The notes below the pieces were generated by a model. The model was not told the origin of the DNA, did no database searches, and saw only the letters and a list, made by a program, of their open reading frames with translations. DNA of 42,813 nucleotides from Lyngbya sp. HA4199-MV5 (GTDB lineage Bacteria > Cyanobacteriota > Cyanobacteriia > Leptolyngbyales > Leptolyngbyaceae): assembly GCA_019359375.1 (NCBI GenBank), contig JAHHHL010000053.1, positions 1 through 42,813 of the forward strand. The letters are read 5' to 3'. Shown here piece by piece: positions 26,183-30,305 of this stretch. Within the stretch, counting starts at the first letter, position 1. Each line of letters begins with the position of its first letter. A program made the translations under genes and the position numbers.

Positions 26183-26761
26183 GTGTCAGCAGTGCCGACC
26201 GTACCGAGCGATCGCCCTCAGGGTGAATCGGATCATCATCTGGTGCAGCGGTGTCTTCAAGGAGACACTCGTTGTTTTCAGCAGCTTTACGGGCGGCATC
26301 AGCAACGGGTGCGATCAATTCTCTACCAATTGTGCGATGCGTCCGCTCTGGATGATCTGGTGCAAGAGGTGTTTTTACGTGCCTGGAGAGGATTGCCTAA
26401 GTTCCGTCAAACGGCTCAGTTCTCGACCTGGCTTTACCGCATTGCCTGGAATGTGGCTTCTGATCAACGAAAAGCAGCAGCGCAAGGGCGATCGCGGCTT
26501 CAGGTGATCAGCAGTCAAACGCAAGCCCAGCATGATGATCCGGGTGTGATGCATCTGCACTATGAGGATCTGGTCAAACGGGGATTAACCAGTCTCAGTT
26601 TCGACCACCGCACCATTCTGGTACTGCACGATCTTGAAGAAGTGCCTCAAAAGGATATTGCAGAAATGCTTGAAATTCCAGTCGGTACGGTCAAATCTCG
26701 TTTGTTTCACGCTCGCGCTGCCATGCGCCAATTTCTCCAGAAGGAAGGAGTCCAGTTATGA
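26183..26761 (+). CDS. ECF-type sigma factor
   Basis: The 192-aa sigma-70 family protein has region 2 (FQQLYGRHQQRVRSILYQLC, LDDLVQEVFLRAWRGLPKFR, FSTWLYRIAWNVASDQRK) and region 4 (LSFDHRTILVLHDLEEVPQK, IAEMLEIPVGTVKSRLFHAR). No region 3 is present, so it is group 4 (ECF), similar in layout to cyanobacterial SigG-like factors. GTG 26183 is the longest start; the first conserved residues (DHHLVQRCLQGD) begin about 16 codons later. It overlaps the anti-sigma gene by 4 bp (ATGA), which couples the two. A Spy-like gene follows. Together they suggest an envelope-stress response. Confidence 0.9.
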   Translation: MSAVPTVPSDRPQGESDHHLVQRCLQGDTRCFQQLYGRHQQRVRSILYQLCDASALDDLVQEVFLRAWRGLPKFRQTAQFSTWLYRIAWNVASDQRKAAAQGRSRLQVISSQTQAQHDDPGVMHLHYEDLVKRGLTSLSFDHRTILVLHDLEEVPQKDIAEMLEIPVGTVKSRLFHARAAMRQFLQKEGVQL

Positions 26762-27138
26762 GCCAAATTCCCCATGATGACCAGGAATTAGTCGCGTTCT
26801 TGAAGCAGCATCGCCCTCAAGCGCCGCCGCCTGATCCTGCTCTGGAGTCGCGGTTGTTTGACGCGATCGATGCCCTGCCACCGCAAGAAAAGCTGGTGCC
26901 CTTTCGGCGATCGCAGCCCCGCGCACGGCGATCGTCGCTGGTATGGTTAGTGCCACCGACCCTCGCCGCTGGGTTGGTCGCCAGCATCATTAGCTACCAG
27001 GCAATGGTGCCAGCCAAGCCGAATGCAACTGAACTGGCGAACCTGCAAGCCTTTGTAGAAAGCAACTGGCAAGGCACCGTGAACAGCAGCAGCACCGATG
27101 AAGAACTGCCTGTATTTAACGAAGGCACGACGAATTGA
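26758..27138 (+). CDS. Membrane-anchored anti-sigma factor
   Basis: The 126-aa protein has a cytoplasmic N-terminal part (DQELVAFLKQHRPQAPPPDP), a basic patch, one transmembrane helix (SLVWLVPPTLAAGLVASIIS) and a short periplasmic tail with an ESNWQGTVNSSS stretch. No HxxxCxxC zinc anti-sigma motif is seen, so it is not a ZAS protein. The role is inferred from position and topology; translation is coupled to the sigma gene. Confidence 0.78.
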   Translation: MSQIPHDDQELVAFLKQHRPQAPPPDPALESRLFDAIDALPPQEKLVPFRRSQPRARRSSLVWLVPPTLAAGLVASIISYQAMVPAKPNATELANLQAFVESNWQGTVNSSSTDEELPVFNEGTTN

Positions 27139-27311
27139 GGTTAGTTGTTAGTTGTTGGTTGTTAGTTGTTGGTTAGGAGTCAGGAGTCAGGAGTCAGCAT
27201 CAACTCAAAACTCTTAGCTCAAAACTCTCCCCCCTTCCCCCTGCTCCCCACGCCCCTCCTCTTTCCCTTTTCATCCCTCATCCCTCTCCCTTCATCCCTC
27301 CCCCCCTTCCC
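27137..27311. repeat. STRR composite between anti-sigma and Spy-like genes
   Basis: GTTAGTTGTTAGTTGTTGGT and GGAGTCAGGAGTCAGGAGTC are followed by CAAAACTC units and a C/T-rich run (CCCTCATCCCTCTCCCTTCA). The C/T run touches the Spy-like start codon. Confidence 0.9.
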
Positions 27312-27830
27312 ATGTCTCCCCGTCATCTTTCGATTCTTGCTGCTACGGTTGTTCTGCTTGGAGGTGCGGTGGCGATCGCCAACCCCATGCTGCGGTTGCA
27401 GCCGATCGCCCAAGCGCCAACGGCATCACCTGATCCAGTGCCGTCCGGTCAAGCAACGTCTGAGCCGATGTCACCAAACCGTCGGGAGCAAGGTTGGTTT
27501 GAGGATCTGAATCTTAGCGCTGACCAGGTGCAGAAAATGCGTGCGATTCGCAATCAGTACCAGGGCAAGATTAGCCAGGGGCGGCAAGCGGTGCGGCAGT
27601 CCCGGCAGGAGTTGCAAGCGTTGATGGCTGGCGACGCGACCGAAGCGCAGATTCGAGAAAAGTACAACCAGGTCAAAACGCTGAAGCAGCAGGTAGGAGA
27701 TGCCCAGTTTGAAAGTATTTTGGCAACGCGCAAGGTGTTGAATCCTGAACAGCGACGCAAGTTTGCCAGCCGGATGCTGAAGCGACAGTCGGGCGATCGA
27801 CCGTATCGTGGCGATCGCGGGCAGCTATAG
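27312..27830 (+). CDS. Spy/CpxP-like periplasmic protein
   Basis: The 172-aa product has an N-terminal signal segment (HLSILAATVVLLGGAVAIAN) and a helical domain with WFEDLNLSADQVQKMRAIRN, QALMAGDATEAQIREKYNQV and VLNPEQRRKFASRMLKR. These are the LTxxQ-type features of Spy/CpxP chaperones and periplasmic heavy-metal sensors. Following a sigma/anti-sigma pair, it is a likely target or modulator of that circuit. ATG 27312 has only pyrimidines upstream. After the gene, 27831-28119 shows nothing I recognise. Confidence 0.8.
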   Translation: MSPRHLSILAATVVLLGGAVAIANPMLRLQPIAQAPTASPDPVPSGQATSEPMSPNRREQGWFEDLNLSADQVQKMRAIRNQYQGKISQGRQAVRQSRQELQALMAGDATEAQIREKYNQVKTLKQQVGDAQFESILATRKVLNPEQRRKFASRMLKRQSGDRPYRGDRGQL

Positions 27831-28575: not shown

Positions 28576-29748
28576 TTATAGTTGATCGAGCTTGGTTTTA
28601 AGTGCCTCAAGTTCGTCATTCACAGCCGGATCAGGCGTTGCTGTTGAGGAAGCTTTAACGACTGTTGATTCTGCGGTTGTGGTGCCTGGAAGCTGAACCT
28701 GTTCCTGCGGTGCTGACCCTAAGAGGTACGCTTTCATTGCTGCCAGTTCATCATCCACGCTGTTACCAGATTCCAGAAAGGCAAATTGACTTTCTAGATC
28801 CGCGCCTGCCAGTTCGGCTGCTGCCTGAGAACGTGCTTCCATTTGCAGCACTTTATCTTCCATGCGCTCAAAGGCTGACATTGCCCTACTGGTGCTCAAC
28901 CGACCTACTGTGCTTTGCAGTTGCCCATTTGCTTTAGCAGCAGCAATCTGCGCCTTCAAGCGAGTTCTCATCACTTTTGCTTCAGCAATTTTGGCTTCTA
29001 GAAGGGTTATATTTTGCTTAAGAGTTTTCACTGAAGCTGGTTTTTGGTTAAGCTGATCTTTAACGCTGCTGAGAATGCCAGCGTGCATCTTCTTACGGCT
29101 CAAAGCTTCTCGTGCCAGAAATTCATCGTCTTTTTGCAAAGCAAGTTGTGCCCGCCCTTCCCATTTACTGACTTCCGCTTGTGCCTGTGCATACTGCTGT
29201 TGAAGTCGCTTCTGACTGGCAACTAAAGTGATACTTGCTTGATGGGCGTTTCGCAAGTCTGCCTCCATCTGCTCGATCGCGCTATCCAAAAGCTTTTCTG
29301 GATCGATACCTTGTTGAAGGAGACGATTTAAGCCAACTAAACCCAGTCCAATCACGGCTCCACCTGCTGCCATTGAAGCCATACCAACCCCGATCGCGCC
29401 TCCACCAGCCGCGATACCAACGCCTCCAATCGCTGCTGAAGTTGCTACACCTGCGACGGCTCCAATCGCCGCAGCACTGGTAGAGGAACCATCGCTTTCC
29501 ATGAGCGATCGCAACACTTCATAAAGGGCAGCACCCGTTAACGCACCAGCAGCAGCGAGCGGAACAGCACCCAGGCTATAGCCTGCCCCACCTGCTAAGA
29601 TTCCAACCTTGCCAATAGAAGCACCTGCAACAGCTCCTCCAGCAACCAGAGCAGTTCCTTCGTTCAGGTAATTCTCTTCACAATCACCTTTACTAGAGTT
29701 CAGTTCGGCTCGAACTACGCGGCTCATGCGATCGAATAGCTGTCCCAT
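28576..29748 (-). CDS. PspA/IM30 (Vipp1)-family protein with a glycine-rich hydrophobic insertion
   Basis: Residues 1-17 (MGQLFDRMSRVVRAELN) equal helix alpha-0 of PspA/Vipp1. The rest of the family begins at 148 with DPEKLLDSAIEQMEADLRNA, then QKRLQQQYAQAQAEVSKWEG, AQLALQKDDEFLAREALSRK and long helices up to about 345. Between them, residues 31-146 form a Gly/Ala/Val-rich hydrophobic stretch (VAGGAVAGASIGKVGILAGG, AIGGVGIAAGGGAIGVGMAS) like glycine-zipper or membrane-inserting segments. The C-terminus has two VDDELAAMKAYL / VNDELEALKTKL motifs as in Vipp1 tails, separated by a T/S/P linker. PspA/IM30 proteins form ESCRT-III-like assemblies that protect or remodel membranes. This version could be permanently membrane-anchored; that is inference. 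Confidence 0.85.
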   Translation of the reverse strand: MGQLFDRMSRVVRAELNSSKGDCEENYLNEGTALVAGGAVAGASIGKVGILAGGAGYSLGAVPLAAAGALTGAALYEVLRSLMESDGSSTSAAAIGAVAGVATSAAIGGVGIAAGGGAIGVGMASMAAGGAVIGLGLVGLNRLLQQGIDPEKLLDSAIEQMEADLRNAHQASITLVASQKRLQQQYAQAQAEVSKWEGRAQLALQKDDEFLAREALSRKKMHAGILSSVKDQLNQKPASVKTLKQNITLLEAKIAEAKVMRTRLKAQIAAAKANGQLQSTVGRLSTSRAMSAFERMEDKVLQMEARSQAAAELAGADLESQFAFLESGNSVDDELAAMKAYLLGSAPQEQVQLPGTTTAESTVVKASSTATPDPAVNDELEALKTKLDQL

Positions 29749-30059: not shown

Positions 30060-30305
30060 ATGCCTGATATAACTGTTAGCCTCAGCAACACGTCTCACGC
30101 AACGTTAATCAAATTAGCAGAAACCTCTGGCGAGTCGATGCAGACGGTTTTGGACAAGGCGATCGAGAACTATCGTCGGCATGTTTTTCTCATGCAAGCT
30201 AATCAAGCGTTTGATGCCTTGAGGCAAAATCAAGCCCTTTGGCAGGAAGAACTAGCGGAGAGAGGTTTATGGGATCAGACAATGGCTGATGGAGTCGTGG
30301 AATAG
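30060..30305 (+). CDS. Ribbon-helix-helix-like antitoxin
   Basis: The 81-aa product begins MPDITVSLSNTSHATLIKLA and continues SMQTVLDKAIENYRRHVFLM and ALWQEELAERGLWDQTMADG. The start has the strand-helix-helix pattern of RHH antitoxins; the tail is of the type seen with MazF partners. The expected toxin frame opens at ATG 30289 inside this gene but is only a remnant. Confidence 0.75.
   Translation: MPDITVSLSNTSHATLIKLAETSGESMQTVLDKAIENYRRHVFLMQANQAFDALRQNQALWQEELAERGLWDQTMADGVVE

Follow-up and report, generated by a model that had tools for sequence, protein, structure and literature searches.

A putative membrane-associated Vipp1 (IM30) paralogue of cyanobacteria with a Gly/Ala-rich module between helices alpha-0 and alpha-1

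Vipp1, also called IM30, is a bacterial ESCRT-III and membrane-repair protein. The tip of its helical hairpin and helix alpha-5 are the two halves of a domain-swap contact, the clasp between the subunits of Vipp1 rings. In Vipp1 polymers, alpha-0 touches alpha-1 and alpha-4 (PMC13051332), and the alpha1-3 hairpin of IM30 also binds membranes (PMC12636044; PMC13051332). HSP70 and the J protein CDJ2 assemble and disassemble VIPP1 (PMC6882379), and IM30 has been reported to form condensates (PMC13351666). According to the main text of a broad survey, the architecture of more than 98% of PspA homologues varies little and under 2% have repeats or fusions, of which tandem PspA, NlpC/P60, and PspAA are named; adjacent pspA/vipp1 genes occur in cyanobacteria (Ravi et al., 2024, PMC11237479). 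Most PspA proteins have 200–250 aa, a search of the longer actinobacterial ones detected no additional domain, and PspC-PspA combinations occur in Firmicutes (Popp et al., 2022, PMC9239133). A WD40 survey mentions that the neighbours of such genes in cyanobacteria include DnaJ domains (PMC5587647).

The window analysed here is a stretch of 42,813 nucleotides from Lyngbya sp. HA4199-MV5. A preliminary description of it had reported a PspA/IM30 protein with a Gly/Ala-rich insert of about 115 residues between alpha-0 and alpha-1. We found this to be correct, with a somewhat longer insert of about 130 residues (19–148) that contains 23.1% Gly and 22.3% Ala (45% together). The protein, here called Gly-Vipp1, is laid out as follows.

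28576..29748, minus strand: Gly-Vipp1 gene, 390 aa, ATG at 29748, stop at 28576-28578 (Lyngbya sp. HA4199-MV5, JAHHHL010000053.1)
29695..29748, minus strand: helix alpha-0, residues 1-18 (MGQLFDRMSRVVRAELNS), from the alignment and the motif MGLFDRxxRV (PMC13051332)
29659..29694, minus strand: polar variable linker, residues 19-30, from the alignment
29497..29658, minus strand: Gly/Ala module unit 1, residues 31-84, internal repeat with low-confidence helices 26-49 and 63-84
29308..29487, minus strand: Gly/Ala module unit 2, residues 88-147, internal repeat with low-confidence helices 90-103, 124-134, and 137-145
28900..29304, minus strand: DPE motif and alpha1-alpha3 hairpin, residues 149-283, model helices 150-205 and 209-281, common to Gly-Vipp1 of other genera
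29089..29160, minus strand: hairpin tip, residues 197-220 (model turn 206-208), conserved with canonical Vipp1
28720..28884, minus strand: alpha4-alpha5, residues 289-343, 91% identity to the Vipp1 of the same genome, mosaic breakpoint near residue 269
28579..28719, minus strand: tail and Vipp1-type alpha-6, residues 344-390, 77% identity to the genome's own Vipp1

The Pfam family PspA_IM30 (PF04012) covered only residues 140–340 (E 7.8e-44; 150.3 bits against a cut-off of 33.9), which agrees with the earlier observation that the family pattern follows the insert; DPEKLLDSAIEQM, the opening of alpha-1, is where that pattern resumes. Both the alpha1/alpha2-3 hairpin and alpha4-alpha5 were present, the former as helices of an AlphaFold2 model and the latter by identity. 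In HA4199-MV5, alpha-0 reads MGQLFDRMSRV; it is of the Vipp1 type and one residue longer than MGLFDRxxRV. This motif or a variant occurred in 12 of 13 aligned Gly-Vipp1 rows and was missing from the open frame of Scytonema sp. NIES-4073. The DPE motif is kept, but it lies about 130 residues away from alpha-0, and the direct alpha-0/alpha-1 EDPE junction is absent.

The closest solved structures were Vipp1 chains (6zvr, E 1.2e-57 over residues 139–390), and a Vipp1-type alpha-6 aligned through to the C terminus of 6zvr. Gly-Vipp1 thus shares the DPE motif, the alpha1-alpha3 hairpin, alpha4-alpha5, alpha-6, and the alpha-0 motif with cyanobacterial Vipp1/IM30 (PDB 6zvr; 7o3w, sll0617), from which it differs in the module, the diverged hairpin arms, and the extra residue in alpha-0. 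It also has the PspA_IM30 fold in common with the Synechocystis PspA type (PDB 7abk, 8akq), although that match was much weaker (E 1.5e-16). The PDB names 7abk and 8akq “chloroplast membrane-associated 30 kD protein”; we take them to be PspA of Synechocystis. In the hairpin tree, the 13 PspA rows fell on one side of a branch (SH-aLRT 82) and every Vipp1 and Gly-Vipp1 row on the other. By structure match and tree position, Gly-Vipp1 is a Vipp1 (IM30) paralogue rather than a PspA, so the family assignment made earlier as PspA/IM30 holds and can be narrowed to its second half.

No Pfam or NCBIfam family covered the insert; that it might be a known annotated domain had been named earlier as a possible objection. 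The preliminary description knew of no described version, and the titles and openings of abstracts among the matches listed, with subscription journals mostly outside the search, likewise contained no description of a PspA/Vipp1 with this insert or of the module itself. Among the fusions surveyed by Ravi et al. (2024), the module has no counterpart in wording: glycine, WD40, and DnaJ do not appear in the main text (PMC11237479). Gly-Vipp1 is a new Vipp1 variant carrying a module for which no description was found.

The insert proved to be a tandem duplication: unit 1 matched unit 2 with an hhalign probability of 97.4% (E 9.5e-12), and the best of 40 column shuffles reached 6.5%. Over the first 150 residues, the proteins of two other genera showed 83% and 81% identity. 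The dN/dS of the module was 0.13–0.22 in six inter-genus pairs, indicating purifying selection, and 0.17 and 0.52 in two closely related pairs, where changes are few. Hydropathy was modest and marginal for transmembrane helices (highest listed 19-residue mean 1.76). Two AlphaFold2 models gave the module no confident fold, with pLDDT of about 20–42 in one and a mean of 47 in the other. The best match to the module in the PDB was citryl-CoA lyase (E 0.003 with the whole protein, 0.018 with residues 19–150), and this and the weaker matches were taken as an effect of composition.

We predict that the module lies on or in a membrane. The suggestion that it inserts stably or forms a glycine-zipper pore found no support in that form, given the hydropathy and the low confidence of the models. 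If the low-confidence helices are real and the module forms four of them, arranged as two hairpins, alpha-0 would end up on one side of the membrane together with the Vipp1 hairpin, the arrangement needed for co-assembly. It had also been stated that standard members touch membranes only through alpha-0, which does not agree with the reports that the IM30 hairpin binds as well. The hairpin of Gly-Vipp1 had a median net charge of +5, compared with +4 in Vipp1; the idea that the module replaced the positive membrane-binding charge of the hairpin was ruled out, since net charge is kept or slightly higher and the module has not simply taken over hairpin binding.

A profile of the module matched 44 of 386 cyanobacterial genomes. 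It lay within a Vipp1/PspA protein (276–392 aa) in six of them and in frames of 529–630 aa in 30; in the rest it stood alone (about 130–195 aa), was present only by half, or belonged to frames of 240–299 aa. These module-WD40 genomes were counted by frame length, and the sequences of 24 distinct frames of at least 560 aa and one of 529 aa were examined. The larger relatives consist of the module, Vipp1 alpha4-alpha5, WD40 repeats, and a J domain. An alpha4-alpha5 match (i-E <0.05) was present in 21 of the 24 distinct frames of at least 560 aa and an HPD near the C terminus in 23. Pfam found WD40 repeats in both module-WD40 proteins scanned whole, and the DnaJ domain (PF00226) in the C termini of the two scanned (E 6.2e-14 and 5.8e-12). 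The stretch between module and WD40 repeats corresponded to positions 161–220 of a profile of 30 Vipp1s (hhalign 97.9%, E 3.1e-13; best of 40 column shuffles 3.9%); its alignment used 15 of 16 sequences, one having been missed by the motif. Pfam gave no match to two stand-alone modules, and in NCBIfam two of four had none and the other two only E 0.04–0.07, far under the cut-offs.

In Scytonema hyalinum the different forms are clustered: a Gly-Vipp1 gene, a PspA-like gene of 328 aa, a stand-alone module followed by an HNH nuclease gene, and a WD40-J gene. A stand-alone module directly followed by an HNH-type nuclease gene was seen there (Pfam; L080 9032-9810) and in genome G167 (by eye; L067 1255-2023). 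In genome G216, a Gly-PspA without alpha4-alpha5 adjoins a WD40-J gene that has it. PspA-like coiled-coil genes without a module were located upstream of module-WD40-J genes in two further genomes (L045 2-784, L047 678-1499).

The sharing of the module among proteins of one locus, together with its modest hydropathy, the lack of a confident transmembrane model, and the condensates reported for IM30 itself (PMC13351666), would also suit a soluble, self-associating glycine-rich region, that is, an oligomerisation or condensate scaffold common to partner proteins, with no membrane anchor. We consider this distinctly unlikely, because the module has two conserved repeats, each with two predicted helices and long uncharged stretches, and because the stand-alone modules would have nothing else to act on.

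Among 58 genomes (HA4199-MV5 and its relatives), the full-length form was found in HA4199-MV5 itself (G000), G008, and G010, and the six other genomes of its genus had none. When one genome per species (84,980 species) was scanned with two short patterns derived from the alignment of the N termini, 10 loci were returned, all cyanobacterial by title: a Thermosynechococcaceae MAG, FACHB-471, a Synechococcales MAG, Elainella saxicola, Leptolyngbya sp. Prado105, Pegethrix, an Oscillatoriales MAG, S. hyalinum, Myxacorys, and Scytonema sp. NIES-4073. With HA4199-MV5, G010, G206, G216, and the Nostoc plasmid pNSMS104, the total is 15 loci in several cyanobacterial lineages, some of them closely related; this is a lower bound, as the scan did not return G010, G206, or G216. 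Genomes G339, G167, and G008 are the same as loci L073, L079, and L081 (the sequences agree) and were counted once each, and the module fragments of G020 and G044 were left out. All parts through alpha-5 were present at 13 of the 15 loci; alpha4-alpha5 is missing from the G216 protein and alpha-0 from the NIES-4073 frame. The 14 further loci ruled out a chimera restricted to one assembly, which had been named as a possible objection. A viral or phage origin was rejected as well: no relative was confirmed in viral contigs, and none was found in 50,697 phage records searched with the first 150 residues.

The Nostoc sp. MS1 plasmid pNSMS104, typed as mobilizable, encodes a Gly-Vipp1 (WP_224096111.1, annotated as PspA/IM30 family) with 52% identity over 100% of the query. 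Other genes on the plasmid (L190) include one of the dynamin family and toxin-antitoxin genes annotated as HicA/HicB and VapC. A sporadic, horizontally moving gene, with one copy in such company and stand-alone relatives next to HNH nuclease genes, could be a mobile conflict or pore-forming factor in which the module is a glycine-zipper pore that the Vipp1 part targets or regulates. This seems very unlikely to us: two stand-alone modules had no match in PADLOC and the coiled-coil part of Gly-Vipp1 had only weak ones (E 0.0015–0.005), the phage records gave none, and the interaction surfaces of Vipp1 are retained. A defence system was likewise rejected, the PADLOC results being the weak Gly-Vipp1 matches (best E 0.0015), general HNH matches for the neighbouring nuclease, and one match of a WD40-J protein through its WD40 repeats.

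Fourfold sites differed by 0.34 in the module (702/2053) and 0.38 in the hairpin (374/987) among the Gly-Vipp1s of eight genomes, and by 0.62 (709/1152) in the resident Vipp1 hairpins of the same genome pairs; these pooled counts cover 8 of 13 genomes, with the near relatives G429 and G431 left unpaired. That the Gly-Vipp1s are closer to each other than the resident Vipp1s of the same pairs indicates horizontal transfer.

In comparisons of protein sequence, the affinities change at alpha-4. For alpha1-alpha3, another Gly-Vipp1 was closer than the genome's own Vipp1 in 11 of 13 genomes (the two Scytonema only via each other). Among the 14 Vipp1s compared, the own one ranked as closest for alpha4-alpha5 in 10 of 13 genomes (ties to two decimals in three) and for the tail in 7 of 12. 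A 3SEQ-like single-breakpoint permutation test on all nucleotide sites reached its floor (p 5e-5) in 8 of 12 genomes, as the best of up to 11 comparisons; G438 was left out. Breakpoints were at residues 269–294 of the Lyngbya HA4199-MV5 protein in seven of these eight and at 171 in G010. G429, G431, and G206 gave no significant result and G436 a weak one (p 0.0025 before correction, 11 comparisons). AU tests, from which the PspA rows and one Vipp1 row were excluded, rejected a single Gly-Vipp1 clade for alpha4-alpha6 (p 3.6e-8 with ten rows, lower with all 13) and did not reject it for the hairpin (p 0.7 and 0.43). Ten of the 13 Gly-Vipp1s clustered together in the hairpin tree, and G206 formed a second group with the two Scytonema; Gly-Vipp1 may therefore have arisen twice. 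The tree of alpha4-alpha6 grouped the HA4199-MV5 Gly-Vipp1 with the Vipp1s of its own genus (SH-aLRT 91).

At the fourfold sites of alpha4-alpha5, pooled, the own Vipp1 was no closer (90/157, 0.57) than the other Gly-Vipp1s (250/460, 0.54). A recent exchange was clear only in Myxacorys, where 5 of 25 of these sites differ (pS 0.73 in the hairpin, 0.20 in alpha4-alpha5). In the HA4199-MV5 gene 14 of 24 differ, so its exchange with the own Vipp1 must be old, and by the same fourfold sites the 3′ exchange must be old in most genomes. Beyond what had been described for this DNA, the profile matches and breakpoints show the module as a mobile domain common to WD40-J proteins with Vipp1 alpha4-alpha5, and the gene as a mosaic with the resident Vipp1.

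Conservation was scored in 12 Gly-Vipp1s (the G010 sequence, I_G010, was dropped) at columns conserved to at least 85% in 33 Vipp1s. Of these columns, Gly-Vipp1 retained 17 of the 20 that lie in the hairpin tip and 30 of the 34 in alpha4-alpha5, but half (33 of 66) of those in the arms of the hairpin (Fisher p 0.009 and 1.6e-4, respectively); the first value is optimistic, because the bounds 197–220 were set after the conservation profile had been seen. Both regions are well conserved in Vipp1 generally, and alpha4-alpha5 is short. The best preserved parts are therefore the two halves of the domain-swap contact. In residues 161–172 of alpha-1, agreement was 0.96 among Vipp1s and 0.39 between Gly-Vipp1 and Vipp1. 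With the module placed between alpha-0 and alpha-1, the contact of alpha-0 with alpha-1 and alpha-4 is probably changed, which fits this divergence.

A gene that moves between species with a tail resembling the host's own Vipp1 suggests that the protein joins the Vipp1 polymers of its host. Our preferred reading, to which we give a probability of about 0.48, is that Gly-Vipp1 is a transferred, membrane-associated Vipp1 paralogue that would dock via alpha-5 into the resident Vipp1 polymer and anchor, nucleate, or cap it. The two-repeat module would put the protein on or into the membrane; the hairpin tip and alpha-5 would still fit the resident Vipp1, with whose gene the alpha4-alpha6 end is mosaic; and the protein would then enter the resident polymer as an anchored subunit, nucleator, or cap. 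From the compatible tip and alpha-5 contact and the 3′ mosaic, we infer that joining resident polymers is most likely.

Since every part needed for a homopolymer is present, Gly-Vipp1 could instead be a free-standing, membrane-anchored paralogue that forms its own polymer, for example in envelope stress, with the resident Vipp1 unneeded. The 3′ mosaic would then be neutral gene conversion, which between paralogues requires no function, or old ancestry combined with slow change, in keeping with the age of most exchanges at fourfold sites and the single group formed by alpha1-alpha3 of ten proteins. We regard this as unlikely. Breakpoints recur between alpha-3 and alpha-4 (7 of the 8 significant cases) and not anywhere along the gene, the tip residues are retained though the recombination test assigns their stretch to the Gly-Vipp1 side, and the alpha4-alpha5 piece is also kept alone in the WD40-J proteins.

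Under the preferred reading of docking into resident polymers, the WD40-J relatives would dock through their alpha-5 peptide as well and bring DnaK to the polymer, for which the action of CDJ2/HSP70B on VIPP1 is a precedent (PMC6882379). The chloroplast CDJ2-HSP70B system resembles them in that a J protein works on the Vipp1 polymer; the cyanobacterial J protein, a putative co-chaperone, differs in having the module, Vipp1 alpha4-alpha5, and WD40 repeats as well. A wider and more doubtful proposal is a mobile Vipp1 receptor system, in which a membrane module bears either a whole Vipp1 or an alpha4-alpha5 plug with WD40 repeats and a J domain. Both would plug alpha-5 into resident hairpin tips, Gly-Vipp1 holding or nucleating the polymer at a membrane and WD40-J bringing DnaK for its disassembly; control of remodelling would thereby be tied to a fixed site, and recombination would re-match the plug to the Vipp1 of each new host. 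How bacterial ESCRT-III polymers are placed on particular membranes and removed from them is a question on which the two proteins would give handles in cyanobacteria, which are harmless, and the mosaic genes point, without a structure, to alpha4-alpha5 as the surface that must match the resident polymer.

A module-WD40 frame was present in 4 of 6 Gly-Vipp1/PspA genomes and 26 of 380 others (Fisher p 4e-4, kinship ignored). In one of the four, G008 (Myxacorys), the frame of 529 aa contains WD40 repeats, while alpha4-alpha5 and a J match are missing. No such frame was found in 8 of 14 Gly-Vipp1 genomes, HA4199-MV5 included, some of which may be incomplete assemblies. No module-WD40 protein was found in the HA4199-MV5 genome, only a second half-module in a frame of 77 residues, so an obligatory WD40-J partner of Gly-Vipp1 is unsupported. 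In the NIES-4073 cluster, a transposase-like insertion (by eye) breaks the module-WD40-J gene (L082 8903-11880); with the Gly-Vipp1 frame lacking alpha-0, the system seems to be decaying there.

A single conserved neighbourhood of Gly-Vipp1 was ruled out, since most genera have different surroundings for it. In HA4199-MV5 its two flanking genes are about 1,970 bases apart; their matches were about 90 and 170 bases apart in the congeners G006 and G003 and about 1,270 in G001, G002, and G004, with another gene between them in G002, and in G005 the small flanking gene had its only match at a different place. In the window, the plus strand at 26183-27830 carries genes for an ECF sigma factor, a possible anti-sigma factor of 126 aa that matches nothing in Pfam, and an LTXXQ (Spy/CpxP-like) protein; one small ORF separates them from Gly-Vipp1. 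The LTXXQ gene occurs in 5 of 6 congeners, all without Gly-Vipp1, so its link to Gly-Vipp1 may be chance. Between Gly-Vipp1 and the next gene, an ORF of 81 aa (30060-30305) is a putative antitoxin remnant by eye.

In G216, G206, and both Scytonema, an FrhB/FdhB-family gene lies near the Gly-Vipp1/PspA gene in opposite orientation; two were recognised by Pfam and two by N-terminal similarity, and this position is perhaps the ancestral site in the G216/G206/Scytonema lineage.

L061 12357-13550: FrhB/FdhB-family gene
L062 12049-13254: FrhB/FdhB-family gene
L080 4626-5819: FrhB/FdhB-family gene
L082 4009-5202: FrhB/FdhB-family gene
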